Shown piece after piece: positions 1 through 38,675 of a stretch of 64,000 bases of DNA. The translations under genes and the position numbers were made by a program. Numbering within the stretch: position 1 is the stretch's first letter; each line of letters opens with the position of its first letter. The stretch comes from Nocardioides jiangsuensis (lineage in GTDB: Bacteria > Actinomycetota > Actinomycetes > Propionibacteriales > Nocardioidaceae), in the NCBI RefSeq assembly GCF_019679455.1, contig NZ_JAIEZQ010000001.1, positions 434,001 to 498,000 of the forward strand, read 5' to 3'. The notes under the pieces are model-generated. The model made no database searches. It had not been told where the DNA came from and worked only from the letters and a program-made list of their open reading frames with translations.

Positions 1-203
1 TCGGACAGCCGCGGCATCGGGGCGAAGAACCGCATGTACTTGGACTCGGCGGAGACCTGCTCGTAGAACTCGACGAGCAGCTGCTCGTCGTCGACGGAGA
101 TCGGCCGCAGGTGCGCGGTGTGGCCGTCGCGGAGGAGGACGTCGGCCTCCCAGTGCTTCGGGTAGTCGAGGCCGGGGCCCGGAGCTGTCGTCGCTTCGCT
201 CAC
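1..203 (-). CDS. GNAT-family protein, N-terminal 67 residues (cut by window edge)
   Basis: The gene reads leftward off the window from GTG at 203, so only the N-terminus is seen. The strand after residue 14 ([16 protein letters not shown]) and the later [13 protein letters not shown] resemble the N-terminal acetyltransferase domain of the actinobacterial GNAT / acetate-CoA-ligase-like proteins (Pat-like protein acetyltransferases). Whether the ligase domain follows cannot be seen. A -10-like hexamer TACATT begins 12 bases before the GTG, which suggests a leaderless transcript and supports this start. It is divergent from the topoisomerase IV A gene. An ordinary GNAT enzyme is the alternative. 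Confidence 0.7.
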
Positions 204-280
204 CCCGGAAATGTATCGCCTCCGGGCAACAGCGGCGTGCCCCCGCACGACTTCCAGGTGTCCCGGGAGAGAATGGCGCA

Positions 281-2767
281 ATGGCACGACGCACCAAGCC
301 CGCCCCGCCCCCCGACGACTTCGAGGAGCACATCCTCGACATCGACGTCGGCGACGAGATGCGGTCCAGCTTCCTCGAGTACGCCTACTCGGTGATCTAC
401 AGCCGCGCGCTCCCCGACGCCCGCGACGGGCTCAAGCCCGTGCAGCGCCGGATCCTCTACACGATGGGCGAGATGAACCTGCGCCCCGACCGCGGCCACG
501 TGAAGAGCGCCCGCGTCGTGGGTGAGGTCATGGGCCGGCTGCACCCGCACGGCGACGGCGCGATCTACGACGCGCTGGTCCGGATGGTCCAGCCCTGGTC
601 GCTGCGGGTGCCGCTCGTCGACGGCCACGGCAACTTCGGCTCCCCCGACAACGGGCCCGCCGCGATGCGGTACACCGAGTGCCGGATGGCCCCCGCGGCG
701 ATGCCGATGACGGTCTCGATCGACGAGGAGACCGTCGACTTCAAGCCGAACTACGACAGCCGAGAGCTCGAGCCGTCGGTGCTCCCCGCGGCGATCCCGA
801 ACCTGATCGTCAACGGCGCCTCCGGCATCGCGGTCGGCATGGCCACCAACATCGCCCCGCACAACCTGGTCGAGGTGGTCCAGGCGCTGCGGCACATGAT
901 CACCCACCCGTCGGCCGGGCTCGACGACCTGATGCGGTTCATCCCCGGCCCCGACCTGCCCACCGGCGGCAAGATCGTCGGCCTCGACGGGATCCGCGAC
1001 GCCTACGAGTCCGGCCGCGGGTCGTTCCGGATGCGGGCCACCGCCCGCGTGGAGAGCGTCACCCCGCGCCGCAAGGGCATCGTGGTCACCGAGCTGCCGT
1101 ACGGCGTCGGGCCGGAGAAGGTCATCGAGCGGATCAAGACGATGGTCCAGGCCAAGAAGCTCCAGGGCATCTCCGACGTCAAGGACCTCACCGACCACAA
1201 CAACGGGCTGCGCCTCGTGATCGAGGTCAAGAACGGCTTCCACCCCGAGGCGCTGCTCGAACAGCTCTACAAGCTCACCCCGATGGAGGACTCCTTCGGT
1301 ATCAACGCGGTCTGCCTGGTCGACGGGCAGCCGCGCACGCTCGGTCTCAAGGAAATGCTCGAGGTCTACCTCGGGCACCGCTACGACGTGGTCCGCCGCC
1401 GGTCGACGTACCGCCGGGCGAAGGCCGCCGACGAGCTGCACCTCGTCGAGGGCCTGCTGGTCGCGATCCTCGACATCGACGAGGTGATCCAGCTGATCAG
1501 GGCCAGCGAGAACGCCGCCGAGGCCAAGCAGCGGCTGATCACGGTCTTCGACCTCAGCGACGTGCAGGCCACCTACATCCTCGACATGGCGCTGCGCCGC
1601 CTGACGAAGTACTCGCGGATCGAGCTGGAGAACCGCAAGTCGGAGCTGGAGAAGACGATCGCCGAGCTCGACGCGATCCTCGACGACGAGAAGCTGCTCC
1701 GGAAGGTGGTCTCCGACGAGCTCGGCGAGGTGGCCAAGACCTACGGCACCCCGCGCCGCACCGTCCTGCTGGCCTCCGCCGGGCAGACAGTGACCTCCGC
1801 GGTCCCGCTCGAGGTCGCCGACGACCCGTGCTGGGTGTACCTGTCCTCGGCCGGCCTGCTGGCACGCAGCGGCGACGCGGAGCCGCCGGGCTCCGGAGGC
1901 GGCCGCACCAAGCACGACGTGGTGGTGTCGGCGGTGCGCACCACGGCCCGCGGCCAGGTCGGCGCGGTCACCAACCGGGGCCGGCTGGTCAAGCTCGACG
2001 TGCTCGACCTGCCCACGCTCCCCTCCACCGCGAACGCCCCGCACCTGCAGGGCGGCGCGCCGGTCAGCGAGTTCCTCTCCCTCGAGACCGACGAGCGGGT
2101 GCTCACCCTGTCGTCGTTCGACACCGACTCCCCCGGCCTCGCGCTCGGCACCCGCAACGGCGTCGTCAAGCGGGTCAACCCCGAGTACCTCAGCAACAAG
2201 GACGACTGGGAGGTCATCCGGCTCGCCGAGGACGACGAGCTGGTCGGCGCCGTGGAGCTGCGGACCGGCGAGGAGCAGCTGTGCTTCCTCACCGCCGACG
2301 CCCGGCTGCTGCACTTCGCCGCGGGCGGGGTGCGCCCGCAGGGCCGGGCCGGTGGCGGTGTGGCCGGTGTCCGGGTCGGTCCCGGCGAGCAGGTGGTGGC
2401 CTTCACCGCCTTCACGCCCGGCGACGACGCGGTGGTGGTGACCGTGTCCGGCTCCAGCACCGCGCTGCCGGGCACCGAGCCCGGCGCGGTGAAGGTGACC
2501 CCGTTCTCGGAGTACCCCGCCAAGGGCCGGGCCACCGGCGGCGTCCGCTGCCACCGCTTCCTCAAGGGTGAGGACACCCTGGTGTTCGCGTGGGCCGGCC
2601 GCGGCCCCGCGCGCGCGGCCGCGGCCAGTGGCGCGGCGGTGGACCTGCCCGAGGCGCAGGGCCGGCGCGACGGCTCCGGACTGCCCGGCACCCAGCCGAT
2701 CGTGGCCTGCTCCTCGCCGGTGGAGGCCCTCCTCCCGGCCGGCTCCGCGAGCGACGTGACAGGCTGA
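281..2767 (+). CDS. parC: DNA topoisomerase IV subunit A (GyrA/ParC family)
   Basis: 828 residues, a usual length for a type IIA topoisomerase A subunit, which cuts and rejoins DNA and, with subunit B, decatenates and relaxes chromosomes. The N-terminal breakage-reunion domain shows [17 protein letters not shown] near residue 40 and the catalytic tyrosine Y131 in MRYTECRM. The C-terminal third is the DNA-wrapping beta-propeller. I see no QRRGGKG-type GyrA box; the matching place reads [12 protein letters not shown], which favours topoisomerase IV over gyrase. The subunit B gene lies 4 kb downstream on the opposite strand. A GAGAAT hexamer begins 12 bases before the ATG. The last 60 residues are Ala/Gly-rich and probably disordered. 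Confidence 0.93.
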
Positions 2768-5246: not shown

Positions 5247-6205
5247 GCGGGCTGACGTGCAGCGACGGCTCCGCGGCGGCCGGTGAGCAGCTGGCCGGCA
5301 GCGCGCCGGAGGCGGTCGCCTGGGTGGCCCTCGAGCAGAACGGCCCGTGGGGCGCGAAGGCGTTCACCGACAGCCACCTCGACCCCGACCTCGGCCGCCG
5401 GGTCGAGGCCGCGGCGGCGGCGTTCGGGGTACGCCCCTCGCTGGTCCGACGGCCGGGACGTCACGCCGACGCGGCCGCCCGCGCGGGAGGTCGTCTCGGA
5501 CCGGGCGCCGACCCGCGGCACGTGCTCGTCGCGTACACGCACCCCACCGGCCCCTGGCTGCTCGAGGGAACGCTCGACGACCCGGCGCGGCTGCTCGACC
5601 TGGACTGGGAGGCGCTCGCCGTCGGTGACGCCGAGGCGGTACGACGCTCACTGCCCGTGCTGGCGCGGACCGACCGGCCGCAGCTGCTCGTCTGCACCAA
5701 CGGCACCCGCGACGTCTGCTGCGCGACGAAGGGCCGCCCCGTCGCGCTCGGCGCCGCCGCCGCGCACCCCGGGCAGGTCTGGGAGGTGACCCACACCTCG
5801 GGTCACCGGTTCGCCCCCACCACCGTGCTGCTCCCGGCCGGGACGCTGCACGGCCGGCTCGACGTCGCCGCCGCATGCGAGGTGCTGCAGGCCGCGGAAC
5901 GGGGCGAGACGGTCCTCCCCGGCAGCCGCGGCCGCTCGACCTGGGCCGGACCCGCCCAGGTCGCCGAGCTCGCCGTGCGCGACGTGGCGGGTGTGCTCGG
6001 GCTGGACGCGCTGCGGGTGGTCACCCACGACGCCACCGGCGAGCGCCGCTGGAGCACCCTGGTCGCGCACGACGACGGCCGGACGTGGCGGGTGGAGACC
6101 GAGTCCCGCGACGCCGAGGTCGAGCGGGCGGAGTCCTGCGGCAAGGCGCTCAAGCCCCTCACGTACTTCACCCACCTCGTCGAGACGTCACTCGTTCGGC
6201 GTTGA
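5243..6205 (+). CDS. sucrase/ferredoxin-like family protein
   Basis: 320 residues. The region around residue 151 reads CTNGTRDVCCA followed by KGRPVA, the cysteine signature of the sucrase/ferredoxin-like family, which has a thioredoxin-like fold and probably binds an iron-sulfur cluster. A second conserved piece is VTHTSGHRFAPT about 35 residues later, where the His may be a ligand. Its role in the cell is unknown. The GTG start overlaps the exporter stop by 4 bases. The final residues (ETSLVRR) and the stop codon are encoded inside the first copy and at the start of the second copy of a 22-bp tandem repeat, so the C-terminus appears to have been rewritten by the repeat. Confidence 0.8.
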   Translation: MSGLTCSDGSAAAGEQLAGSAPEAVAWVALEQNGPWGAKAFTDSHLDPDLGRRVEAAAAAFGVRPSLVRRPGRHADAAARAGGRLGPGADPRHVLVAYTHPTGPWLLEGTLDDPARLLDLDWEALAVGDAEAVRRSLPVLARTDRPQLLVCTNGTRDVCCATKGRPVALGAAAAHPGQVWEVTHTSGHRFAPTTVLLPAGTLHGRLDVAAACEVLQAAERGETVLPGSRGRSTWAGPAQVAELAVRDVAGVLGLDALRVVTHDATGERRWSTLVAHDDGRTWRVETESRDAEVERAESCGKALKPLTYFTHLVETSLVRR

Positions 6206-6266
6206 GAGGTCACTCGTTCGGCGTTCAGGCGTCAGTCGTGAGGCTTCGAGGCGTCACTCGTTCGGC
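6179..6266. repeat. 22-bp tandem repeat, four copies (locus 1)
   Basis: Four head-to-tail 22-base units at 6179-6200, 6201-6222, 6223-6244 and 6245-6266. They share the pattern gttgaggcgtcactcgttcg followed by gc, with a few substitutions in the first and most in the third copy (cagtcgtgag). The first unit overlaps the 3' end of the upstream gene and the second supplies its TGA. The same unit recurs at 52369-52516. Confidence 0.9.
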
Positions 6267-6331
6267 GACGCGCCGTCCGCCGTACGGCCGGGGATGCGAA
6301 GTCATGCAGTGGATCCGATAACCTTCCGAAC

Positions 6332-6829
6332 GTGTCCCATGACTTCGACGACCTCCTCGAGGCCAACCGCCGTTTCGCCGAGTCCTTCGCGCTGAGCGGC
6401 TTCGACGGTGTCGCGCACGCCGGCGTCGCCCTGGTGACCTGCATGGACTCGCGCATCGACCCGCTCGGCATGCTCGGCCTCGAGCCGGGCGACGCGAAGA
6501 TCTTCCGCAACCCGGGTGGCCGCGTGACGCAGGCCGCGCTCGAGGCGCTCGTCCTCGGCGCGCACCTGCTCAACGTGAGCCGGATCCTGGTCGTCCCGCA
6601 CACGAGGTGCGCGATGACGTCGAACACCGAGCACGAGCTGCGCGAGAAGATCAGCCGGTCCAGCGGCCAGGACGCCTCCTGGCAGACCTTCCACGTCATC
6701 GAGGACCAGATCGCCGCGCTCCACGAGGACGTGCAGAAGGTGCGGGCGCACCCGCTGATCCCCGACACGGTGAAGGTCGGCGGGTTCCTGTACGACGTGG
6801 ACACCGGCCTCATCGAGCAGAAGGTCTGA
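6332..6829 (+). CDS. beta-class carbonic anhydrase
   Basis: 165 residues, at the short end for the family. The zinc ligands are visible as Cys37 (CMDSR), His90 and Cys93 (HTRC); Asp39 and Arg41 form the conserved dyad. GDAKIFRNPGGRVT is the substrate-pocket region. It interconverts CO2 and bicarbonate, probably in the cytoplasm. The GTG start is chosen because no ribosome site is present but a TAACCT hexamer begins 13 bases upstream, the pattern of leaderless genes here. It is convergent with the topoisomerase IV B gene, whose stop is only 13 bases away. Confidence 0.9.
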   Translation: MSHDFDDLLEANRRFAESFALSGFDGVAHAGVALVTCMDSRIDPLGMLGLEPGDAKIFRNPGGRVTQAALEALVLGAHLLNVSRILVVPHTRCAMTSNTEHELREKISRSSGQDASWQTFHVIEDQIAALHEDVQKVRAHPLIPDTVKVGGFLYDVDTGLIEQKV

Positions 6830-6842
6830 CCGCCGTACGGCG

Positions 6843-8933
6843 TCAGGCGTCGATCGCCTCGGCGTCCACCTCGTAGGCGCCCTGCACGATGAACTCCTTG
6901 CGCGGCGCGACCTCCGAGCCCATCAGCAGCTCGAACACGTTGGCGGCGACGTCGGCGTCGTCGAAGGTGATCCGGCGCAGCGTGCGGTGGCGCGGGTCCA
7001 TGGTGGTCTCCGCGAGCTGGTCGGCGTCCATCTCCCCGAGTCCCTTGTAGCGCTGGATCGGCTCCTTCCAGCGCACGCCCTTCTTGGTCAGCTCGGCGAG
7101 CTTCCGCTGCAGCTCGGGGTCGGAGTAGGTGTAGATGTACTTGTCCATCCCCTTCTTCGGGTTGGACAGCTCGATCCGGTGCAGCGGGGGTACGGCGGAG
7201 TAGACCCGGCCCTCGCGGATCAGGTCCGGCATGTACTTGAAGAACAGCGTGGTCAGCAGGCAGCGGATGTGCGCGCCGTCGGAGTCCGCGTCGGCCATGA
7301 AGATGATCCGGCCGTAGCGGCGGGCGTCGATGTCGAAGGTCCGCCCGGAGCCGGCACCGACCACCTGGATGATCGAGGCGCACTCGGCGTTCTTCAGCAT
7401 GTCGCCGACCGAGGCCTTCTGGACGTTGAGGATCTTGCCGCGGATCGGCAGCAGCGCCTGGAACTCGGAGTTGCGGGCAAGCTTCGCGGTGCCGAGCGCG
7501 GAGTCACCCTCGACGATGAACAGCTCGCTCTTCTCCATGTCGTTGGAGCGGCAGTCGGCCAGCTTCGCCGGGAGCGCGCTCGACTCGAGCGCGTTCTTCC
7601 GGCGCTGGGTCTCCTTGTGCTGGCGGGCGGCGATCCGCGTGCGCGAGGCCGCGACCACCTTCTCCATGACCAGCTTGGCCTGCGCCTTCTCCGCCCGCTT
7701 GGTGGAGGTGAGGAACTTCTTGAGCTCGCCGGAGACGACCTTCCGCACGATGTTCCGCGCGGCGGGCGTGCCGAGCACCTCCTTGGTCTGCCCCTCGAAC
7801 TGCGGCTCGGCCAGCCGGACGGTGACGACCGCGGTCATCCCCTCGAGCACGTCGTCCTTGATGACGTCGGTGTCGTTGACCTTGAGCTGCTTCGTGGCCC
7901 GCAGCACCTCGTTGAACGTCTTGGTGACCGCCTGCTCGAACCCGGCGACGTGGGTGCCGCCCTTGGGCGTGGAGATCACGTTGACGAACGAGCGCACCTC
8001 GGTGTCGTAGCCGGTCCCCCAGCGCAGGGCGACGTCCACGCCGAGGTCGCGCTCGACGTCCTGCGGGGTCATGTGCCCCTTCTCGTCGAGCAGCGGCACG
8101 GTCTCGGTGAACTGCTCGTGCCCCTCGAGCCGCAGGATCTCGCTCACCGGCGCGTCGGCGGAGAGGAAGTCGCAGAACTCGCTGATCCCGCCGTCGTGGC
8201 GGAACCGCTCCTCGCGCGGCTCGTCGCCGCGAAGGTCGCGGATCACCAGCTCGAGGCCGGGCACGATGAACGAGGTCTGCCGGGCCCGGGTGACCAGCTC
8301 GTCGTAGGTGAACGTGGCGTCCTTGGTGAAGATCTGCCGGTCCGGCCAGAACCGGATCCGCGTGCCGCTCACACCCTTCTTCACCCGGGCGCCCTTGCGG
8401 GTCAGACCCGACTGGGGGGTGAAGTCGGCGCCAGGCCCGTCGGCGGAGAAGACACCGGGTACGCCGCGCTGGAAGGACATGCCCTGGATCGCCGGGGAGC
8501 GCTCGACGTCCACGTCGAGCCGGGAGGACAGCGCGTTGACGACCGAGGCGCCCACGCCGTGCAGGCCACCGGTGGCCACGTAGGAGCCGCCACCGAACTT
8601 GCCGCCGGCGTGCAACTTGGTGAAGATCACCTCGACGCCGGGCAGCCCGGTCTTCGGCTCCTTGTCGACGGGGATGCCGCGGCCGTCGTCGTGGACCTCG
8701 ACCGAACCGTCGGCGTGCAGGATGACCTCGATCCGCTGCGCGGCACCGGCCAGGGCCTCGTCCACGCCGTTGTCGATGATCTCCCACACGCAGTGCATGA
8801 GCCCGCGGGTGTCGGTGGACCCGATGTACATGCCCGGCCGCTTGCGCACGGCCTCGAGCCCCTCGAGGACGAGGAGGTGGTGGGCGTTGTACGAGTTGTC
8901 GATCTTGGTCCCTCCGGCGGTGCTGGCTGGCAC
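6843..8933 (-). CDS. parE: DNA topoisomerase IV subunit B (GyrB/ParE family)
   Basis: 696 residues. GHKL ATPase motifs are present: EIIDNGVDEA (Asn55), DDGRGIP (82-88) and GGLHGVGASVVNALS. The TOPRIM domain shows EGDSALG (Glu475) and DADSDG near 549, the metal-binding residues. The C-terminus has the conserved YKGLGEM. It powers strand passage by the subunit A encoded at 281-2767. GTG 8933 is preceded by AGGAG four bases upstream. The A and B genes are convergent and separated by four other genes, so they are not co-transcribed. Confidence 0.93.
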   Translation of the reverse strand: MPASTAGGTKIDNSYNAHHLLVLEGLEAVRKRPGMYIGSTDTRGLMHCVWEIIDNGVDEALAGAAQRIEVILHADGSVEVHDDGRGIPVDKEPKTGLPGVEVIFTKLHAGGKFGGGSYVATGGLHGVGASVVNALSSRLDVDVERSPAIQGMSFQRGVPGVFSADGPGADFTPQSGLTRKGARVKKGVSGTRIRFWPDRQIFTKDATFTYDELVTRARQTSFIVPGLELVIRDLRGDEPREERFRHDGGISEFCDFLSADAPVSEILRLEGHEQFTETVPLLDEKGHMTPQDVERDLGVDVALRWGTGYDTEVRSFVNVISTPKGGTHVAGFEQAVTKTFNEVLRATKQLKVNDTDVIKDDVLEGMTAVVTVRLAEPQFEGQTKEVLGTPAARNIVRKVVSGELKKFLTSTKRAEKAQAKLVMEKVVAASRTRIAARQHKETQRRKNALESSALPAKLADCRSNDMEKSELFIVEGDSALGTAKLARNSEFQALLPIRGKILNVQKASVGDMLKNAECASIIQVVGAGSGRTFDIDARRYGRIIFMADADSDGAHIRCLLTTLFFKYMPDLIREGRVYSAVPPLHRIELSNPKKGMDKYIYTYSDPELQRKLAELTKKGVRWKEPIQRYKGLGEMDADQLAETTMDPRHRTLRRITFDDADVAANVFELLMGSEVAPRKEFIVQGAYEVDAEAIDA

Positions 8934-9192
8934 GGGGCTCCTTGCGGCTCGGGTGGTGGCTCACGGACAAATCTACCCGCGACACGCCCACCGCCCGAAA
9001 CGCCACGCCTACCGCGGATGGGGGGTGCGAGAGGCCACGATGAGGACGAGTCACGATGCGACAACGATGTGTTCTGCTCTGGGCGAAACAGGCAGCGGCG
9101 GGGCACCTCGGGGCGTCAGACTTGATGCGAGCCAGCTGTGGTCAGGGTCACCCCGGTCTCACCGGGTACACCATCGGCCAGGGGGAAGCATC

Positions 9193-9255
9193 ATGAGTGA
9201 TTGGATGTTGAGTCAGGTGAGTCGAAGCGCCCGGCCCGTGATTGACCCGAGGTAG
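9193..9255 (+). CDS. possible 20-residue small ORF
   Basis: ATG at 9193 follows AGGGGGAAG by seven bases, a strong ribosome site. The 20-residue product starts MSDWMLSQVSRSA and has no recognisable family. It ends just before the SigR-type promoter of the next gene, so it would need its own promoter, which I cannot place. It may be a real short peptide or chance. Confidence 0.2.
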   Translation: MSDWMLSQVSRSARPVIDPR

Positions 9256-9260
9256 ATCGG

Positions 9261-9286
9261 GGAATGTTGGAGTCGAGCGTTACGTT
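9261..9286 (+). promoter_or_regulatory. SigR/SigH-type promoter of the DUF7455 gene
   Basis: GGAAT (9261-9265), an 18-base spacer and GTT (9284-9286), the exact spacing of the actinobacterial thiol-stress ECF sigma consensus (SigR in Streptomyces, SigH in mycobacteria). The flanks GGGAAT and GTTGAG are the same as in the promoter at 23201-23230. A transcript would begin near 9293, leaving a 25-base leader with a good ribosome site. Confidence 0.6.
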
Positions 9287-9318
9287 GAGCAGGACATCAT
9301 GAAGGAAAGAGGCCTCAA

Positions 9319-9540
9319 GTGACCACTGCAGTTGCCCCCAGTACATCTCTGACGGCTGTGGACCGCTGCGACCGGTGCGGTGCCCAGGCCTACCTGCGCG
9401 TCGAACTCGCCGGTGGCGGCGACCTTCTCTTCTGCGCGCACCACGCGCGAGAGCACGGCGACAAGCTTCGTGAGATCGCGGTGAGCGTCCACGACGAGAC
9501 CGACAAGCTGACCGACACCCCGACCGTCGCACCCGAGTGA
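9319..9540 (+). CDS. DUF7455-type zinc-ribbon small protein
   Basis: 73 residues. CDRCGAQAYLRVEL in the N-terminal half and LLFCAHHAREH give a CxxC...CxxH pattern that should bind zinc, the hallmark of the actinobacterial DUF7455 family, often encoded near the principal sigma factor gene as it is here. The function is unknown. GTG 9319 follows GAAGGAAAGAGG. Upstream is a SigR/SigH-type promoter, which suggests induction by thiol-oxidative stress; a Cys-rich zinc protein would fit that. Confidence 0.78.
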   Translation: MTTAVAPSTSLTAVDRCDRCGAQAYLRVELAGGGDLLFCAHHAREHGDKLREIAVSVHDETDKLTDTPTVAPE

Positions 9541-9572
9541 CCGAGCACTGACCGCTCCCCTCGACAGACGTA

Positions 9573-9605
9573 CCGAAGCCCCGGGCCCCGTGCCCGGGGC
9601 TTCGG
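9573..9605 (+). terminator. hairpin terminator after the DUF7455 gene
   Basis: Perfect 14-base stem (9573-9586 pairs with 9592-9605; ccgaagccccgggc) with a 5-base loop, followed by cgttctgtct. It lies 33 bases after the stop codon. Confidence 0.75.
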
Positions 9606-9641
9606 CGTTCTGTCTGGACCACCGTGTGACAGGGTGATGCC

Positions 9642-10118
9642 GTGAACCTCACCGAGCTCCTCGTGGGCCTGGCCATCCTGGTCGGGCTCATCGGCATCCT
9701 GGTCCCGATCCTGCCCGGCTCGGTGCTGATCCTCGGTGCGGTGCTGGTCTGGGCCACGCTGGACGGCTCGGGCACCGCCTGGACCGTCTTCGCGGTCGCG
9801 ACGGCGATGCTGGTCATCGGGGCGGTCGTGAAGTACGCGATCCCGCACCGCGGGCTGCGGACCAACGGGGTGCCCACCCGCTCCATCCTGCTCGGCGGCC
9901 TGCTCGGGACCATCGGGTTCTTCGTCGTCCCGGTGGTGGGTCTGGTCCTCGGGTTCGTGCTCGGGGTGTACCTCGCCGAGGTCGCCCGGGTCGGCAAGGA
10001 CCAGGCCTGGCCCTCGACGAAGGCGGCCGTCCGCGCGGTCGGCCTCTCGATCCTCGTCGAGCTCGTCACCGGCCTGTCCGCCGCGGCCACCTGGTTCGTC
10101 GGCGCCGTACTGACCTGA
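9642..10118 (+). CDS. DUF456 family membrane protein
   Basis: 158 residues with four to five hydrophobic segments rich in Gly. GILVPILPGSVLILG in the first segment and the repeated GLLGTIGFFVVPVVG / LGFVLGVYLAE half-helices are characteristic of DUF456, a small inner-membrane family of unknown function with glycine-zipper-like segments. GTG 9642 has no ribosome site, but CAGGGT begins 12 bases before it. The EamA transporter starts 5 bases after the stop, so the two are probably an operon. Confidence 0.82.
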   Translation: MNLTELLVGLAILVGLIGILVPILPGSVLILGAVLVWATLDGSGTAWTVFAVATAMLVIGAVVKYAIPHRGLRTNGVPTRSILLGGLLGTIGFFVVPVVGLVLGFVLGVYLAEVARVGKDQAWPSTKAAVRAVGLSILVELVTGLSAAATWFVGAVLT

Positions 10119-32762: not shown

Positions 32763-35486
32763 TCAGATGAGCCGGCGACGGAACGCGAACGCTCCGGCTC
32801 CGGCCGCCAGCACCGCGAGGCCACCGACACCGCGAGCCAGGTTGCGGCCGCCCTCGCCGTCCTCGCCCTTGATCTCGTAGCTGTAGGCGGTCAGGCCCAT
32901 CGCACCCTCGGGGGCGCCGTACGCCATCTTCTCGGCCTGGGCGCGCTCGGCGCCGGCCGCGATGGTGGCGTACATCTCGCCGTAGTTCTGCGCGGTGGAC
33001 TCACCGGCGTCGACGAGCTTGCTGGTGCCCTCGTCGGAGAGGCGCTGCGCACCGTCGACGAGCTTCGGCGCACCGTCCGCGGCCTGGCCCAGACCGTCGG
33101 CGAGCTGGCCGGAGCCGTCCGCCGCGTCACCGAGGCCGTCGGAGAGCTTGCCCGCGCCGTCGGCGACCCGCGAGGCGCCGTCGGCGGCCTTGCCGGTTCC
33201 GTCGGCCAGCTGGCCCGCACCGTCCGCGAGACGCGAGGCGCCGTCGTTCAGCTCCTGGGCGCCCGCGTCGAGCTCGCCGGTACCGGCGCTGAGCTCGCCG
33301 GTCCCGTCCGCGAGCTGACCCGCACCGACGTCGAGCTGACCCGCGCCCTCGGAGAGCTTCGCGAGGCCCTCGAGCAGAGCGTCGCCGCCGTCCTGGAGCT
33401 GGGTGACACCGTCCTGCAGACCGTTCACGCCGCCACGGAGCGTCTTGTCAGCCGGGAGGTCCTTGCCGGTACCGATCGCGCCCTGGACGTTCGCGATCAC
33501 TGTGTCGACCAGCATGGGCACACCCGCAGCGACCTGCTCGAGGCCCTGCCGGACGCCCACCTTGCCGGGTCGCAGAACCTCGCACATGCCGCCGAGCGAG
33601 GAGCTGTCGAGACCGCACTCGATGGTGCTGAGGGCCGGGATGGCGCCGGGCGCGGCCGGGTCCTGGCTGGTCAGGCCGGCCAGCACCGCGTTGAGGCCGC
33701 CGTACAGGGTCTCGAGGTCTGCGGCGTTCGCCGGGTTGTACAGCTTGTTGCGGCCGTCACCGAGCTGCGTGATGAGCTTGGTGACCGTCACCGTCTGGAA
33801 CTCCGCCGGTGTGTCCACCGCGCCGTCGATCGCGGCCAGCGGCATCAGCGGCGGGATCAGCGCATCCGGGTTGGTGGCCGCGTCGAAGTAGCAGAGGTCC
33901 TTTCCGCCCGGGTACCGGCCGGTCGGGATGGTGCCGGCCTTGATGTCGTTGAGCACGACGAGAGCGCAGCCGAGCTTCTCGTAGGCGCCTGGCTCCGGGT
34001 TGGCCGCGGAGGGGGCGTTGTGGACGCCCGCCTGCATCTTCTGGACCCCCGGCACCGCCTTCGTGCTCAGGCCGGCACGAACCTGGTCCACCGCCCAGGT
34101 GAGGCTCCCCTGCGCGGAGGTCGACCCCACTCCGGACACCAGGTCCGTGAGGCCCTGGAGGAGCTGCTTGTACTTGGGGTTGTCGCGGACGTCGCCGACT
34201 CCCACGGAGAGCTTCTTGAGGCCACCGTCGACGAGGACCAGCCCGCCCTGAACCTGCCCGAGACCGTCGAGCAGCGCTGGCGCCTTGGCCCCGGCCTCGC
34301 CGAGACCGTCGGAGAGCCGGCCAGCGCCGTCGGCGAGCTTGTTGGCGCCGTCGTCCAGCTTCCCTGCACCGGCGTCCAGCTTGCCGGTTCCGTCCGCCAG
34401 CTTCTGCGTACCGCCCTCGAGCTGGTCGGTCCCGTCCGCGAGCTTGCCCGCGCCGTCGTCGATCTTGGTGAGGCCGTCGCTGAGCTCGCCCGCACCGTCC
34501 GCGAGCAGGTCCGCTCCGGGAGCCGCGACACCGGCGAGACCGGCCTCGAGCTTGGTCGCGCCGTCGCGCAGCTTGATCAGGCCGGCGAGCAGCTCGCCCG
34601 CGCCGTCACGCAGCTTCAGCAGGTTCGCGTCGATCTGGCTGGCACCGTCGGTGAGCTGGATGCCGGTGTCCGCGCCGCCCTGGTAGCTGTCGGCCGCGGT
34701 CTTGAAGGTCGGGCTCTCCAGCGGGTTCACCGGGAGAGCGCTGATCGAGGCGCGCGGGACGACGCCGTCGGTGATGGTCGCGGTGTAGCCGAACTCCGCC
34801 GTGTCCGAGCCGAGCGGCGGGAACAGCGTCATCGTGAACGACAGCTTGGTGCCGCCCTTGCCGTCGCCGGCCATGTTGGCCTGGCCCGACTGGACGTCGG
34901 TGAAGGTGGACGGCGCGACCGTGGTCAGCGAGCCGACCATCGGGATCGGCACGTTCACCGTCTTGGTGACGGTGCCGCCCTTGCCGTCGTCGAAGGTGAT
35001 CTCCTGGTCGGCGCCGGTGACGTTCTTGACGATGAACTTCACCTCGAGCTTGCCGTCCTCGCCGACCACGTCGCCGGGCTCGACACGCTCACCGTCGAGG
35101 TAGTACTCGACGGTGACCTCGAGGGGCAGGTCGCCGGTGTAGTCGCTGACGGACCGCACCCGCTCCTCGCCGTCGACGGTCATCGTGGCGACCTGGTTCC
35201 CGTCCACGACGTCGAAGCCGCCGAAGCCGTCGAGGTTGCGGAGCCCGTCGGTCTCGATCGGGTTCTGGAGGTCCACGGTGCCGTTGCCGGTCATCGCGAG
35301 CTGCTCGTAGACGCGCTGGGTGTCCACCGCGCCCGAGGCGTCGGTGTAGACCTGGATGGTCTCGGTGTTGGTCACCTGGACGTCACCCTCGGCGCCGGAC
35401 GCCGGCAGGGCGACCATCGCGCAGACGACGGTCGTGGTCGCGGTGACGGCCGCGAGCCGCAGGGGCACAGAAAAACGGCGGGTCAC
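32763..35486 (-). CDS. secreted, membrane-anchored heptad-repeat stalk protein
   Basis: 907 residues. A signal peptide (to about 31, ending LPASGA) leads to a beta-rich domain (32-270). Then comes a block of LxxG heptads of the kind LADGAGKLxDG (about 279-432), a non-repeat domain with four cysteines (507, 532, 624, 635), a second heptad block (about 683-819), and one transmembrane helix near 882-903 followed by Arg residues. The heptads resemble those of YhgE/Pip phage-infection-type proteins. The two arms could pack back to back as a stalk with the Cys domain at the tip. No LPxTG. GTG 35486 overlaps the upstream gene stop (GTGA). Function unknown. Confidence 0.75.
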   Translation of the reverse strand: MTRRFSVPLRLAAVTATTTVVCAMVALPASGAEGDVQVTNTETIQVYTDASGAVDTQRVYEQLAMTGNGTVDLQNPIETDGLRNLDGFGGFDVVDGNQVATMTVDGEERVRSVSDYTGDLPLEVTVEYYLDGERVEPGDVVGEDGKLEVKFIVKNVTGADQEITFDDGKGGTVTKTVNVPIPMVGSLTTVAPSTFTDVQSGQANMAGDGKGGTKLSFTMTLFPPLGSDTAEFGYTATITDGVVPRASISALPVNPLESPTFKTAADSYQGGADTGIQLTDGASQIDANLLKLRDGAGELLAGLIKLRDGATKLEAGLAGVAAPGADLLADGAGELSDGLTKIDDGAGKLADGTDQLEGGTQKLADGTGKLDAGAGKLDDGANKLADGAGRLSDGLGEAGAKAPALLDGLGQVQGGLVLVDGGLKKLSVGVGDVRDNPKYKQLLQGLTDLVSGVGSTSAQGSLTWAVDQVRAGLSTKAVPGVQKMQAGVHNAPSAANPEPGAYEKLGCALVVLNDIKAGTIPTGRYPGGKDLCYFDAATNPDALIPPLMPLAAIDGAVDTPAEFQTVTVTKLITQLGDGRNKLYNPANAADLETLYGGLNAVLAGLTSQDPAAPGAIPALSTIECGLDSSSLGGMCEVLRPGKVGVRQGLEQVAAGVPMLVDTVIANVQGAIGTGKDLPADKTLRGGVNGLQDGVTQLQDGGDALLEGLAKLSEGAGQLDVGAGQLADGTGELSAGTGELDAGAQELNDGASRLADGAGQLADGTGKAADGASRVADGAGKLSDGLGDAADGSGQLADGLGQAADGAPKLVDGAQRLSDEGTSKLVDAGESTAQNYGEMYATIAAGAERAQAEKMAYGAPEGAMGLTAYSYEIKGEDGEGGRNLARGVGGLAVLAAGAGAFAFRRRLI

Positions 35487-36058
35487 TTGGCCTTCTCCAT
35501 CATCATGTCGTCGAGCTTGTGCAGGTCACCGTCGGCGCGGCCCGGACGGCGGCGGACGCCCTCGCTCCGGGGCTCACCGGACGGGGCCATCAGGGCGGCG
35601 GCGAGGAAGCCGACGGCCACGTTGAACAGCAGCGTGGTCGCGACGCTCACGGAGGTCGAGGCGACCTCCGGCGGTGCGGCGGCGAAGGTGAACTCGTAGG
35701 CGCCGGTGAACCCGGCGGTGCCGAGAAGCGTGCTCCACAGCGCGAGGCGGCCCATGCTCACGGCGGCGATCGCCACGCACAGCACGACGACCAGGCCCAC
35801 AGCGACGGCACGCCCGCCGGCGCTGTCGGGCAGCAGCGCGGCGCGGACGATGTAGCCGATCCACGCGGCGACGAATCCCCCGGCGAACCCGGCGAGGCGC
35901 ATCATCGGCGACCGGTCGGGTACGAGGGCCACCACGGCCCCCAGAGCCGCGCCCAACAGGGCGGCAGACTCGAGCTCCAGGTCGAACACAGAGCTCACCA
36001 GGACGACCACAACGGCCGCCACGGTGAGCACGAGTCCGACCAGCACATTTTTGCGCAT
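35483..36058 (-). CDS. small polytopic membrane protein paired with the stalk protein
   Basis: 191 residues with about six hydrophobic segments (starting near 5, 32, 56, 82, 106 and 137), then a charged cytoplasmic tail (about 165-191) ending in HKLDDMMMEKAK. No family recognised. ATG 36058 follows GGAGGGA. Its stop overlaps the start of the stalk gene by four bases, so the two proteins are made together and probably work together, for example as membrane partner or exporter of the surface protein. That role is inference. The promoter should lie in the AT-rich gap upstream, shared with the divergent flippase. Confidence 0.7.
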   Translation of the reverse strand: MRKNVLVGLVLTVAAVVVVLVSSVFDLELESAALLGAALGAVVALVPDRSPMMRLAGFAGGFVAAWIGYIVRAALLPDSAGGRAVAVGLVVVLCVAIAAVSMGRLALWSTLLGTAGFTGAYEFTFAAAPPEVASTSVSVATTLLFNVAVGFLAAALMAPSGEPRSEGVRRRPGRADGDLHKLDDMMMEKAK

Positions 36059-36296
36059 GCTGGCGCGCTCCCTCCAAGATGCCGCCGGAGACTCTCCCAA
36101 GTGAAATTCCCGGCGCGCTTGTACCCTCCCTGGGCCAAGACTTCGAGGCACTATATCTACCGATAGGTAACGAAAATCTCACTACAGGGCAAAAAGACGC
36201 TACGAGTCGTCCACCGGTCTGCGCCATCGACCACAAGTCCTCCGGCGGCGCTCCGTCCGCTCCCGAGGACTTCGGCGTCCGCATAGGGTCGTCGTG

Positions 36297-37619
36297 ATGA
36301 CAGCCCCCCTCGAGACGGAGACCCACGTGCAGCGCGAGCCGGCCCGCCGACGCCTGCCGTCCTGGCTGCTCGGCAGCGGGGTCATCGCGGTCGCCATGGG
36401 CGTGATGAACGTCGCCACCTACGGGTTCACGATCCTGGCCGCGCGCCTCCTCGGGCCCAGTGAGTACGGCGCTCTCGCCGCCGTCATGGGGCTGCTGATG
36501 GTGGTCAGCGTGCTCTCGCTCGGGCTGCAGGCCACCGGCGCGCGGCGGGTCGCGGCCTCTCCCGGCGACCTCGACCGGATCGAGTCGGAGGTCCTCGCGG
36601 CGAGCTACCGCTCGGCCGTGGTGCTCGCGGTCGTCTGCCTGGCCGCCGTACCGGCCATCACCCTGACCCTGCGCCTCGACACCTGGCTGACGGCGGCGTT
36701 CCTCGCGGTCGCCGCCCTGCCGGTCACCGTGATGGGCGGGCAGGGCGGCATCCTGCAGGGCGAGCGACGCTGGCTTCCCCTGGCCGGCATCTACCTCACC
36801 ACCGGTCTGGGACGCATCGCCTTCGGTGCGGCCGGGCTGCTCCTGTGGCGGGACTCCCTCGGCGCGATGGTCGGCGTGGCGGTCGGTGCCTTCGTTCCGG
36901 TCCTGGTCGGCTGGGCGGCGCTGCGCCATCCCGACCGGACCACCGGCCGCGGTCCCGTGCCCAGGGCCCCCCGGATGCGCTCCCGCACGAGCTGGGCACG
37001 CGGCGGGGTCTTCCGCGAGGTCGCCCACAACTCGCACGCGCTGCTCGCCTTCTTCGCGCTCTCCAACGCAGACGTGCTCATCGCCCGGGGCGTGCTCGAC
37101 GACCACCAGGCCGGCCTCTACGCGGGCGGGCTCATCCTGGCCAAGGCGGTTCTCTTCCTGCCGCAGTTCGTCGTGGTGGTGGCGTTCCCGTCAATGGCCG
37201 CCGCCGGGACCCGCCGCGCGGGACACCTCAAGGCGCTCGGTCTGGTCCTCGCGATCGGGGCGGTCGCCACCGTCGGCGCCTACGTCCTGGCCGGGCTGGC
37301 GGTCACCTTCGTCGGTGGCAGCGCGTACGCCGAGCTGCACGACCTGATCTGGGCCTTCGCCGCGATCGGCACGCTGCTGTCCATGATCCAGCTGATGGTC
37401 TACGGCGTCGTCGCCCGGCAGAGCCAGCGGGCGGTCTACGTGCTCTGGGGTGCGCTGCTCGTGCTGGCGGCGTGCGCGCCGCTGCTCGACTCGCCGGTGG
37501 CCCTGCTCGCGACGGTGGCGGCGGTCGAGACGACGGTGCTCCTCGTCCTGCTGGTGTTCAGCCTGCGCCGCCGTACGCCCAGTCCCCCGGCCGACGTACC
37601 GGGAAAGACCACCGTCTAG
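36297..37619 (+). CDS. oligosaccharide flippase-like membrane protein (MOP superfamily)
   Basis: 440 residues with about 12 hydrophobic segments. GSGVIAVAMGVMNVATYGFT and ARLLGPSEYGALAAVMGLLM near the N-terminus are the usual opening of polysaccharide/lipid flippases, and NSHALLAFFALSNADVLIAR near 245 opens the second half. It may move a glycolipid or oligosaccharide precursor across the membrane. TAGGGT begins 13 bases before ATG 36297. It is divergent from the stalk-protein pair across a 238-base gap with an AT-rich core (36148-36200), so common control of a surface function is possible. Confidence 0.82.
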   Translation: MTAPLETETHVQREPARRRLPSWLLGSGVIAVAMGVMNVATYGFTILAARLLGPSEYGALAAVMGLLMVVSVLSLGLQATGARRVAASPGDLDRIESEVLAASYRSAVVLAVVCLAAVPAITLTLRLDTWLTAAFLAVAALPVTVMGGQGGILQGERRWLPLAGIYLTTGLGRIAFGAAGLLLWRDSLGAMVGVAVGAFVPVLVGWAALRHPDRTTGRGPVPRAPRMRSRTSWARGGVFREVAHNSHALLAFFALSNADVLIARGVLDDHQAGLYAGGLILAKAVLFLPQFVVVVAFPSMAAAGTRRAGHLKALGLVLAIGAVATVGAYVLAGLAVTFVGGSAYAELHDLIWAFAAIGTLLSMIQLMVYGVVARQSQRAVYVLWGALLVLAACAPLLDSPVALLATVAAVETTVLLVLLVFSLRRRTPSPPADVPGKTTV

Positions 37620-37784: not shown

Positions 37785-38099
37785 TCAGCCCCACATGGCC
37801 ATCTTGGAGCTCACGCGCCAGACGCCGGCCTTCTTCTCGTAGTCGACCATGATGATGCTCCACGACGGCTTCACGCAGGCCTTGTACTCGCGGGACTGGT
37901 ATCCCGACATGAACATCGACTGCTTGCCGGCGGTGTCGAAGGTGTTGTGCACCCGCTTGATCGACCAGCCCTCGCGGACCTTCTTGAACTCGGTCTTGGT
38001 GACGCAGCCGGGGGTGTCGGCCGAGGCCGGGGCGGCGACCACCAGGACGGGGGCCGCAGCGAGGGCTGCGGTGGCGAGGATGGCTCCGAGGCGCTTCAT
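37785..38099 (-). CDS. small secreted protein, possibly BLIP-like fold
   Basis: 104 residues. A clear signal peptide (MKRLGAILATAALAAAPVLV, cleavage after APASA) leaves a 76-residue mature protein with two cysteines (PGCVTK and KACVKP) likely to form a disulfide. The pattern TKTEFKKVREGWSIKRVH followed by NTFDTAGKQ recalls one repeat of the BLIP/SmpA-type fold (helix, G-S/M, V.....G..G), which includes beta-lactamase inhibitors, but this is only a weak resemblance. ATG 38099 follows AAGGAG nine bases upstream, so expression could be strong. Single-gene unit with its own terminator. Confidence 0.65.
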   Translation of the reverse strand: MKRLGAILATAALAAAPVLVVAAPASADTPGCVTKTEFKKVREGWSIKRVHNTFDTAGKQSMFMSGYQSREYKACVKPSWSIIMVDYEKKAGVWRVSSKMAMWG

Positions 38100-38348
38100 G
38101 GGTGCTGCTCCTTGTGTGTGCGGGTGAATAAGACAATCTTTGGACAAAACGGTCGAACCGCATGGCGTTTCGGTAAAACCACCGCCTGTGTCTCAGCCGG
38201 CGGGCGACAGGGTGGCCGCCGCGGCGTGGCTATTGGCCTTGTGCGCGGTCGAGACGGTCACCTTGGTTGGCGACCGCATCAGCGTTGGCGCGGCACAGGA
38301 AGTGCAGGTGGTCGACGTCCTGGCCAGAGCCGGCCCTGACTGCCGGGC

Positions 38349-38675
38349 TCAGCGGCGCGCGGCGTCGTCGACGCAGAGCACCGCCCAGGGCAGTGCCTCC
38401 AGCCGCCCTTCACCGATCGGCTTCCCGCACACGTCGCAGGTGCCGTAGGTGCCGTCGTCCAGCTTCTCCAGCGCCCGGTTCACGTCCGCCAGGGTGACCT
38501 GGAGCTGGTCGTGCACCGCCACCTGCGAGAGCCGGTCCACCGCCATCGACGTACCCTCGCCGACCCGCTTGCCGAAGGAGATGGAGCCCTGGTCGGAAGG
38601 ACGCTGCTCCATCTGCCCCATCTGGTCGTCGAGCTCGGCCTTCTTCTCGCGGAGCCTCGCGGCGATGTCGTCCAT
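38349..38675 (-). CDS. TraR/DksA-family zinc-finger protein
   Basis: 108 residues. A helical N-terminus (AARLREKKAELDDQMGQM) leads to a C-terminal zinc finger CDVCGKPIGEGRLEALPWAV followed by LCVDDAARR. The spacing is CxxC-x17-C, but the expected fourth Cys is Asp, so the finger has three cysteines. Family members bind RNA polymerase through the secondary channel (DksA) or are of unknown target. CATGAT begins 12 bases before the ATG. It lies 96 bases downstream of polA on the same strand and could be partly co-transcribed. Confidence 0.85.
   Translation of the reverse strand: MDDIAARLREKKAELDDQMGQMEQRPSDQGSISFGKRVGEGTSMAVDRLSQVAVHDQLQVTLADVNRALEKLDDGTYGTCDVCGKPIGEGRLEALPWAVLCVDDAARR

Follow-up and report, generated by a model that had tools for sequence, protein, structure and literature searches.

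In a 64,000-nucleotide stretch of the Nocardioides jiangsuensis genome (contig NZ_JAIEZQ010000001.1, positions 434,001 to 498,000; hereafter the window), we analyzed a pair of genes that encode a small polytopic membrane protein (the partner) and, directly downstream, a long spike or stalk protein in which two arms of LxxG heptad repeats enclose a cysteine-bearing tip. The two genes recur side by side in related genomes, the two arms change length in step, the cysteines of the tip come in even numbers, and in distant relatives the partner is exchanged for a DUF1097-type protein or an MMPL exporter. We put at about 50% the probability that the pair is an envelope complex in which a hairpin formed by the arms acts as a transporter accessory, that is, a wall-reaching conduit or guide for a lipid- or glycan-type substrate.

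Conservation of the gene pair and of matched arm lengths

The host of the pair is a high-GC actinobacterial genome (G000). In a sample of 58 genomes that included it, searched with match thresholds of 1e-20 and 1e-3, both genes were found in the same 12 genomes, adjacent to each other. A scan of GTDB contigs with a profile of the spike base domain yielded 72 named loci, distributed over Nocardioides, Terrabacter, Cellulomonas, Jiangella, Aeromicrobium, Kribbella, Enemella and others. In 70 of these, the partner gene immediately precedes the spike gene in the same orientation; the remaining two loci (L108 and L112) start at the edge of a contig. Junctions were compared over 79 distinct loci: an overlap of 4 nucleotides is found in 46 and one of 1 nucleotide in 4, and a gap of 1 nucleotide in 25 and of 4 nucleotides in one; locus L058 has a longer overlap, and two loci have no readable junction. 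In the window, the ATG start of the partner is preceded by a purine-rich stretch. Recurrence in 72 named loci places the pair beyond chance. The layout given in a preliminary description of this DNA, a 907-residue stalk with a six-segment partner whose stop codon overlaps its start, is thus confirmed, and support is also given to the fixed partnership proposed there, which would have been contradicted had the two genes not been conserved together.

In Enemella dayhoffiae (L107), the partner is split over two frames and the spike is intact. In L201 (G255:C34:24000-37000, 5624-7525, plus strand), a single frame of 634 residues joins a partner-like six-helix part to the base, the arms being replaced by a short segment that is poor in LxxG; as read from this draft genome, it is a candidate natural fusion of partner and base.

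Arm lengths were compared in 71 complete distinct spikes, with arm limits taken from alignment anchors. The lengths of the N and C arms were strongly correlated (r 0.968), and tip length was correlated with neither (Spearman -0.03 and -0.12, respectively). In independent contrasts on a base-domain tree, the correlation between arms was 0.979 (70 contrasts), a value reached in none of 10,000 permutations; the contrasts of each arm with tip length were weakly negative (-0.31 and -0.36). C-arm length left the same remainder on division by 7 in 67 of the 71 spikes. In seven of 22 sister pairs, neither arm differed by more than 2 residues, and direct pairwise alignment of the other 15 revealed equal or near-equal insertions or deletions in both arms in 11 cases (+70/+70, +59/+56, +57/+56, +56/+56, +35/+35, +22/+21, +21/+21, +14/+14, +7/+7, -35/-35 and -44/-42). 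For L074/L043, the anchors had given -36/+7, and pairwise alignment gave -35/-35. Independent changes in two separate repeats would not match in this way, whereas changes in an in-register antiparallel hairpin would. Since the matched changes are mostly of whole heptads, we infer from the aligned sequences that the two LxxG arms are very likely to form a single antiparallel hairpin. The earlier suggestion that the two arms fold back onto one another, open to refutation by arms that do not pair, is therefore upheld by the length changes as well as by the single-chain model described below.

Predicted fold of the spike and its variable tip

The stalk repeats match the xxxLxxG heptad model TIGR03057 (E 4.7e-45; 149.9 bits against a cut-off of 18.6), which is also matched by 10 of 11 orthologues at E 0.01; with E values up to 1 allowed, the stalk matched no Pfam family. 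LxxG density is concentrated in two blocks, approximately residues 250-450 and 650-800. An AlphaFold2 model built from 59 sequences (mean predicted local distance difference test score (pLDDT) 81, predicted template-modelling score (pTM) 0.57) places the base strands at residues 37-252 (block pLDDT 83 to 98), helices at 259-359, 367-431, 683-738 and 743-851, a strand at 863-872 and a terminal helix at 878-906 (block pLDDT 55 to 84). The arm blocks 259-431 and 683-851 have pLDDT values of 48 to 96, mostly 70 to 85, and the helix breaks at 359-367 and 738-743, both low-confidence spots, are roughly opposed in the hairpin. The modelled order agrees with the beta domain in front and the membrane anchor at the end that had been described from the sequence. 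If straight, the hairpin would measure approximately 25 nm here and approximately 14 to 42 nm across the family, at 0.15 nm per residue.

In the predicted model, the base together with the post-hairpin strand resembles mu-homology domains (Z 12.0, 3.6 Å, 192 of 238 residues aligned). Since this match takes in the post-hairpin strand, the hairpin would be an insertion into the base, with both arms leaving it together. The mu-homology domain is part of clathrin adaptors, eukaryotic cytosolic cargo adaptors; because neither the stalk nor 11 base domains gave a Pfam match, the likeness to it is one of fold only. Among the solved structures listed as sequence matches, the whole spike gave only apparent chance matches to coiled coils and repeats, and the base domain only two weak matches (best E 0.38). 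The top Foldseek match of the stalk, the umbrella toxin particle 8w20_A, aligns at a root-mean-square deviation of 56 Å and was therefore taken to reflect no more than a helical stalk common to both.

Besides the four cysteines at residues 507, 532, 624 and 635 between its arms, the spike has one at residue 22, in the signal peptide. Cysteines were counted in 71 proteins from residue 42 to 45 residues before the end, with 10 residues of slack on the C-terminal side. All 212 of them lie between the arms, a region that accounts for 25% of protein length, and their number is even in every protein (0 in 9, 2 in 28, 4 in 28, 6 in 2 and 8 in 4); L063 has an extra single cysteine near its end, at residue 666 of 677. 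An even number is what extracellular disulphide pairing would leave. The four-Cys domain proposed earlier is present here in the sense that four cysteines lie between the arms, but it was rejected as a conserved unit, as only evenness, and not the number, is kept among orthologues.

The tip also varies in sequence. In 20 pairs that we picked among close relatives, tip identity was below base identity in 19 and equal to it in one. Tip identity fell to 27% against 96% in the base for L066/L069, and in the distant pair of the window protein and L039 it was 20% against 81%. The ratio of nonsynonymous to synonymous substitution rates (dN/dS) of the tip was below 1 in 19 of the 20 pairs; the sole value above 1, for the window protein and L039, is unreliable at a tip identity of only 20%. 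Diversifying selection on the tip is thus not supported by these pairs. The positions of all features are given in Table 1.

Table 1. Positions of the gene pair, of the segments of the spike and of the flippase-like gene in the window
Feature	Position	Strand	Basis
Spike (stalk) gene, 907 amino acids, GTG start	32763..35486	-	Open reading frame; TIGR03057; orthologues
Signal peptide, residues ~1-32	35391..35486	-	Ala-rich cleavage region by eye; pLDDT <50 in residues 1-31
Beta base domain, predicted mu-homology-like fold, residues 33-252	34731..35390	-	Model, fold comparison; well conserved
N arm, LxxG helical heptads, residues 259-453	34128..34712	-	Model; length covaries with C arm
Variable tip with Cys 507, 532, 624 and 635, residues 454-682	33441..34127	-	Cysteine positions, pair comparisons
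C arm, LxxG helical heptads, residues 683-851	32934..33440	-	Model; arm-length covariation
Last base strand, back after the hairpin, residues 863-874	32865..32900	-	Model; fold alignment spanning 33..874
C-terminal membrane helix ahead of a basic tail, residues 878-906	32769..32855	-	Model, hydropathy
Membrane partner gene, 191 amino acids, six membrane helices, remote DUF1097 relative	35483..36058	-	Open reading frame, model, profile alignment
GTGA, partner stop TGA overlapping spike start GTG	35483..35486	-	Sequence; overlap or near-contact kept in relatives
Divergent flippase-like gene (Polysacc_synt, E 2.9e-10), loose neighbour only	36294..37619	+	Pfam

Partners of the base domain and neighbouring genes

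The model of the partner (mean pLDDT 87, pTM 0.77) consists of six long helices, and the protein matched nothing in Pfam above cut-off. When its family was aligned with a DUF1097-type profile using hhalign, a probability of 90 and a score of 47 were obtained over 165 columns that cover all six helices; controls with reversed profiles and with MMPL and flippase alignment blocks reached at most probability 0.9 and score 18.8. The partner of genome G082 is intermediate, as it matches both the window-type profile and, below cut-off, PF06496 (E 2.1e-4). Against PF06496 itself the window partner gave no match, and one of 61 family members matched at E 0.095. As judged by profile comparison, the window partner is a remote relative of the DUF1097 superfamily (PF06496; YcdZ of E. 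coli) that lies below Pfam detection.

In a phylum-wide sample of 396 genomes, the base profile matched 52 and the partner profile nine. Eight of these nine also carry the base, and in the ninth, G220, the contig ends just after the partner; an MMPL gene precedes the window-type partner at this contig end (L209, G220:C95). The gene upstream of the base was inspected in 34 of the 52 genomes. It encodes a window-type partner in eight (that of G082 was detected by the larger profile only), a fused protein in one, a DUF1097-type protein in seven and an MMPL exporter in 12; of the others, one (G201) has an MMPL gene and another membrane open reading frame, four have a contig edge and one (G171) has no such neighbour. 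In the G201 locus (L192, G201:C138), the order is MMPL gene, additional membrane frame, spike. Both kinds of membrane protein are present in this locus and in L209. Outside the inspected 34, coordinates put DUF1097 beside the base match in G072, G166, G195, G259 and G275. Of the seven DUF1097-type partners, five were scanned with Pfam, which recognized the family in four (E 5.8e-11 to 8.6e-4, with one value below cut-off) and matched nothing in the fifth; the other two rest on a profile built from such partners. MMPL was recognized by Pfam in nine of the 12 and in G201, and by profile in the other three. Genome G122 carries two DUF1097 and spike pairs in tandem (L202, G122:C47:1-16000).

The anchor of the spike differs with the type of membrane protein. 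The terminal membrane helix is absent in 10 of 10 spikes of the MMPL type (best hydropathy window at most 0.69) and present in five of five of the DUF1097 type (hydropathy at least 2.86); of 71 window-type spikes, 44 reach a terminal hydropathy of 1.6 and 68 reach 1.3, the lowest value being 1.14. MmpL5 is about 960 residues long, and in eight of the 10 MMPL partners measured the stop-to-stop length is 695 to 748 residues. Because these partners are shorter than MmpL5, the spike could supply a tube to them in trans. The constant part of the system is the beta base beside a membrane protein; what can be exchanged is the kind of membrane protein, the way in which the spike is anchored, the length of its arms and its tip. 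No MMPL gene was seen beside the window pair in family scans or among neighbours inspected by eye.

The divergently transcribed flippase-like gene had been thought to provide a surface context. A homologue lies near the pair in 28 of 78 loci, including all seven Jiangella loci and that of G056, from another family of the order; it is also found in G017, which is outside the 78-locus count. Flippase homologues occur in eight of the 12 genomes with the pair against 16 of the 46 without it (Fisher p 0.057). The flippase is thus loosely linked, and its role as an obligatory third member was rejected. The pair lies near polA (named by eye) in 38 of the 78 loci; Cellulomonas loci sit elsewhere. Genes of GT4, methyltransferase and AftD families (the last PF11847, scanned in L076) follow the stalk in five Jiangella loci (L076, L077, L078, L082 and L084), together with a membrane protein without a Pfam match, and GT4, methyltransferase and PorA-family (PF11271) genes adjoin the G035 locus. 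The window also contains a small frame of 120 residues that appears to carry a signal peptide and for which no family scored above cut-off (37785-38147, minus strand), and a 108-residue protein that by eye resembles DksA/TraR-type zinc-finger proteins (38349-38675, minus strand).

Possible functions of the pair

In the reading to which we give about even odds, the small six-helix partner of the DUF1097 superfamily would sit in the membrane. The signal peptide of the 907-residue protein would direct it out of the cell, and its single C-terminal helix would hold it at the membrane. The beta base would dock on the partner at the outer face of the membrane. The LxxG hairpin, inserted before the last base strand, would then point outward and carry the variable tip, probably held by disulphides. 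The hairpin, probably oligomeric, may guide a lipid- or glycan-type substrate across the wall after receiving it from the partner or from an exporter close by, in a manner comparable to the MmpL5 coiled coil or to membrane-fusion adaptors. Since the membrane protein, anchor, arms and tip are exchanged on a constant base, an outward-reaching transporter accessory appears to fit best, and the earlier idea of a role in export gains from the relatives beside MMPL exporters, even if transport by the window pair itself is conjectural.

Adaptors of the HlyD/AcrA type have a membrane-near beta base with an inserted helical hairpin and serve RND and other exporters. The spike, by its arm lengths and model, has in common with them an antiparallel hairpin on a beta base; lipoyl and barrel domains were not seen in it, and its tip, unlike theirs, is enlarged and cysteine-bearing. 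The stalk had no HlyD match in Pfam, and no HlyD or lipoyl fold was among the structural matches listed, which leaves such a fold possible. Symmetric heptad changes have also been observed in membrane-fusion adaptor hairpins. No passage on them was found in the accessible portion of PMC8277102. According to PMC12501195, the coiled coil of MmpL5 is modelled as a tube of approximately 13 nm, has a conserved disulphide and is required for efflux. The spike, as in the actinobacterial MmpS5-MmpL5 system, would be a helical coiled coil that extends outward, and its distant relatives are encoded directly beside MMPL genes. The MmpL5 coiled coil, however, is part of the transporter, whereas the spike is encoded as a protein of its own and brings a beta base with it; in the branch of the window, a small six-helix partner stands in place of MMPL.

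Several observations weigh against a transporter accessory built on a hairpin. No function is known for the partner, and none of its matches to solved folds is strong: the best, to ALMT channels (Z 8.7), is below the caution level of the tool for helical proteins and is not claimed. The pair has no known substrate or transport motif, no transporter is obligatory beside it in this branch, and the Cellulomonas neighbours look unrelated. The arms and the terminal helix are modelled with middling confidence (pTM 0.57). N-arm lengths show no preferred remainder on division by 7 (the largest class holds 24 of 71), because the N stretch also contains non-repeat sequence. Four of the 15 sister pairs lack a clean balance (window/L039, L069/L066, L052/L038 and L100/L099, the last with net changes of 75 and 70). 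An alignment-free test with poor motif anchors gave a Pearson correlation between arms of 0.13 and a Spearman correlation of 0.63 (n=57; Pearson 0.65 for 24 two-cysteine and -0.29 for 27 four-cysteine proteins). Better motif anchors gave 0.74, weaker than the main test, for 45 of the 71 spikes (the other 26 had no anchor match or fewer than two tip cysteines), and with in-phase LxxG runs the value was 0.44 (n=70). The anchor-based figure is backed by the direct pairwise alignments.

The fast-changing tip suits recognition at least as well as it suits a conduit. The main rival of the transporter accessory, compatible with transport and in our judgement possible but on balance doubtful, is a recognition spike whose tip binds cells, surfaces or host material and whose partner anchors it or passes the contact on. 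In five pairs (L066/L069, L079/L080, L091/L096, L102/L106 and L099/L100), the base is 91-97% and the C-terminus 89-99% identical and the tip only 27-43%; other close pairs, however, keep their tips (L061/L062, 93%), the dN/dS values below 1 speak against clear diversifying selection, and the MMPL partners of the relatives point to transport. The spike could also be a phage receptor. Phages use YhgE/Pip and EsaA/YueB as receptors, and according to PMC4999554 the variable region of enterococcal PIP determines phage tropism. Several YhgE relatives likewise have LxxG heptads in two clusters, and the variable outer region of PIP and the wall-spanning length of EsaA recall the tip and the hairpin. 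By this analogy alone, phage contact by the pair is possible. The kinship to YhgE/Pip raised in the preliminary description did not hold up at the level of membership: neither TIGR03061 nor TIGR03062 was matched by the stalk (E up to 1) or by any of 11 orthologues (E 0.01), the generic model of the repeat being the sole match, and the spike has one C-terminal helix and a separate membrane partner in place of the several C-terminal helices of YhgE/Pip. Elsewhere in the same genome, an MMPL gene is followed by a YhgE/Pip-like LxxG gene with TIGR03062 over cut-off (L049, G000:C1:1630000-1648000, 5308-10070, plus strand), another pair of exporter and heptad protein.

The neighbourhood could be taken to mean that the pair, the flippase and nearby glycosyltransferases form a unit that places a surface polymer. 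We consider this quite improbable: the flippase near 28 loci, including those of Jiangella and G056, and the glycosyltransferase clusters of Jiangella and G035 favour it, but the difference between genomes with and without the pair has a p of only 0.057, no flippase lies beside the pair in Terrabacter and Cellulomonas loci, and the linkage could largely reflect shared chromosome order near polA. It is barely credible that the spike is an ordinary low-complexity repeat protein with an accidental neighbour. Its repeats are simple and TIGR03057 is generic, but co-occurrence and covariation refute this notion, and the conserved overlap, the even cysteines and the partner swap also speak against it.

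Carried further, the transporter-accessory reading would make spikes of this kind trans-acting wall conduits, oligomeric tubes served by exchangeable engines (MMPL, DUF1097 or the small partner) and set in length to the wall thickness of the respective species. Such conduits might then be a widespread, undescribed class in actinobacteria, tunable by paired gain or loss of heptads; we regard this extension as speculative and rather unlikely. Among the open-access matches listed in searches on the xxxLxxG repeat, DUF1097, YhgE with MMPL and prokaryotic mu-homology domains, there was no title on the pair. Through the analysis, what was an anonymous repeat protein becomes a defined module of two genes, in which paired length changes reveal the segments that touch. 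Three groups that are uncharacterised or only partly known, LxxG heptad proteins, DUF1097 and MMPL exporters, are joined in one testable scheme. For monoderm actinobacteria, it may offer an answer to the question of how the cargo of exporters crosses a thick wall.

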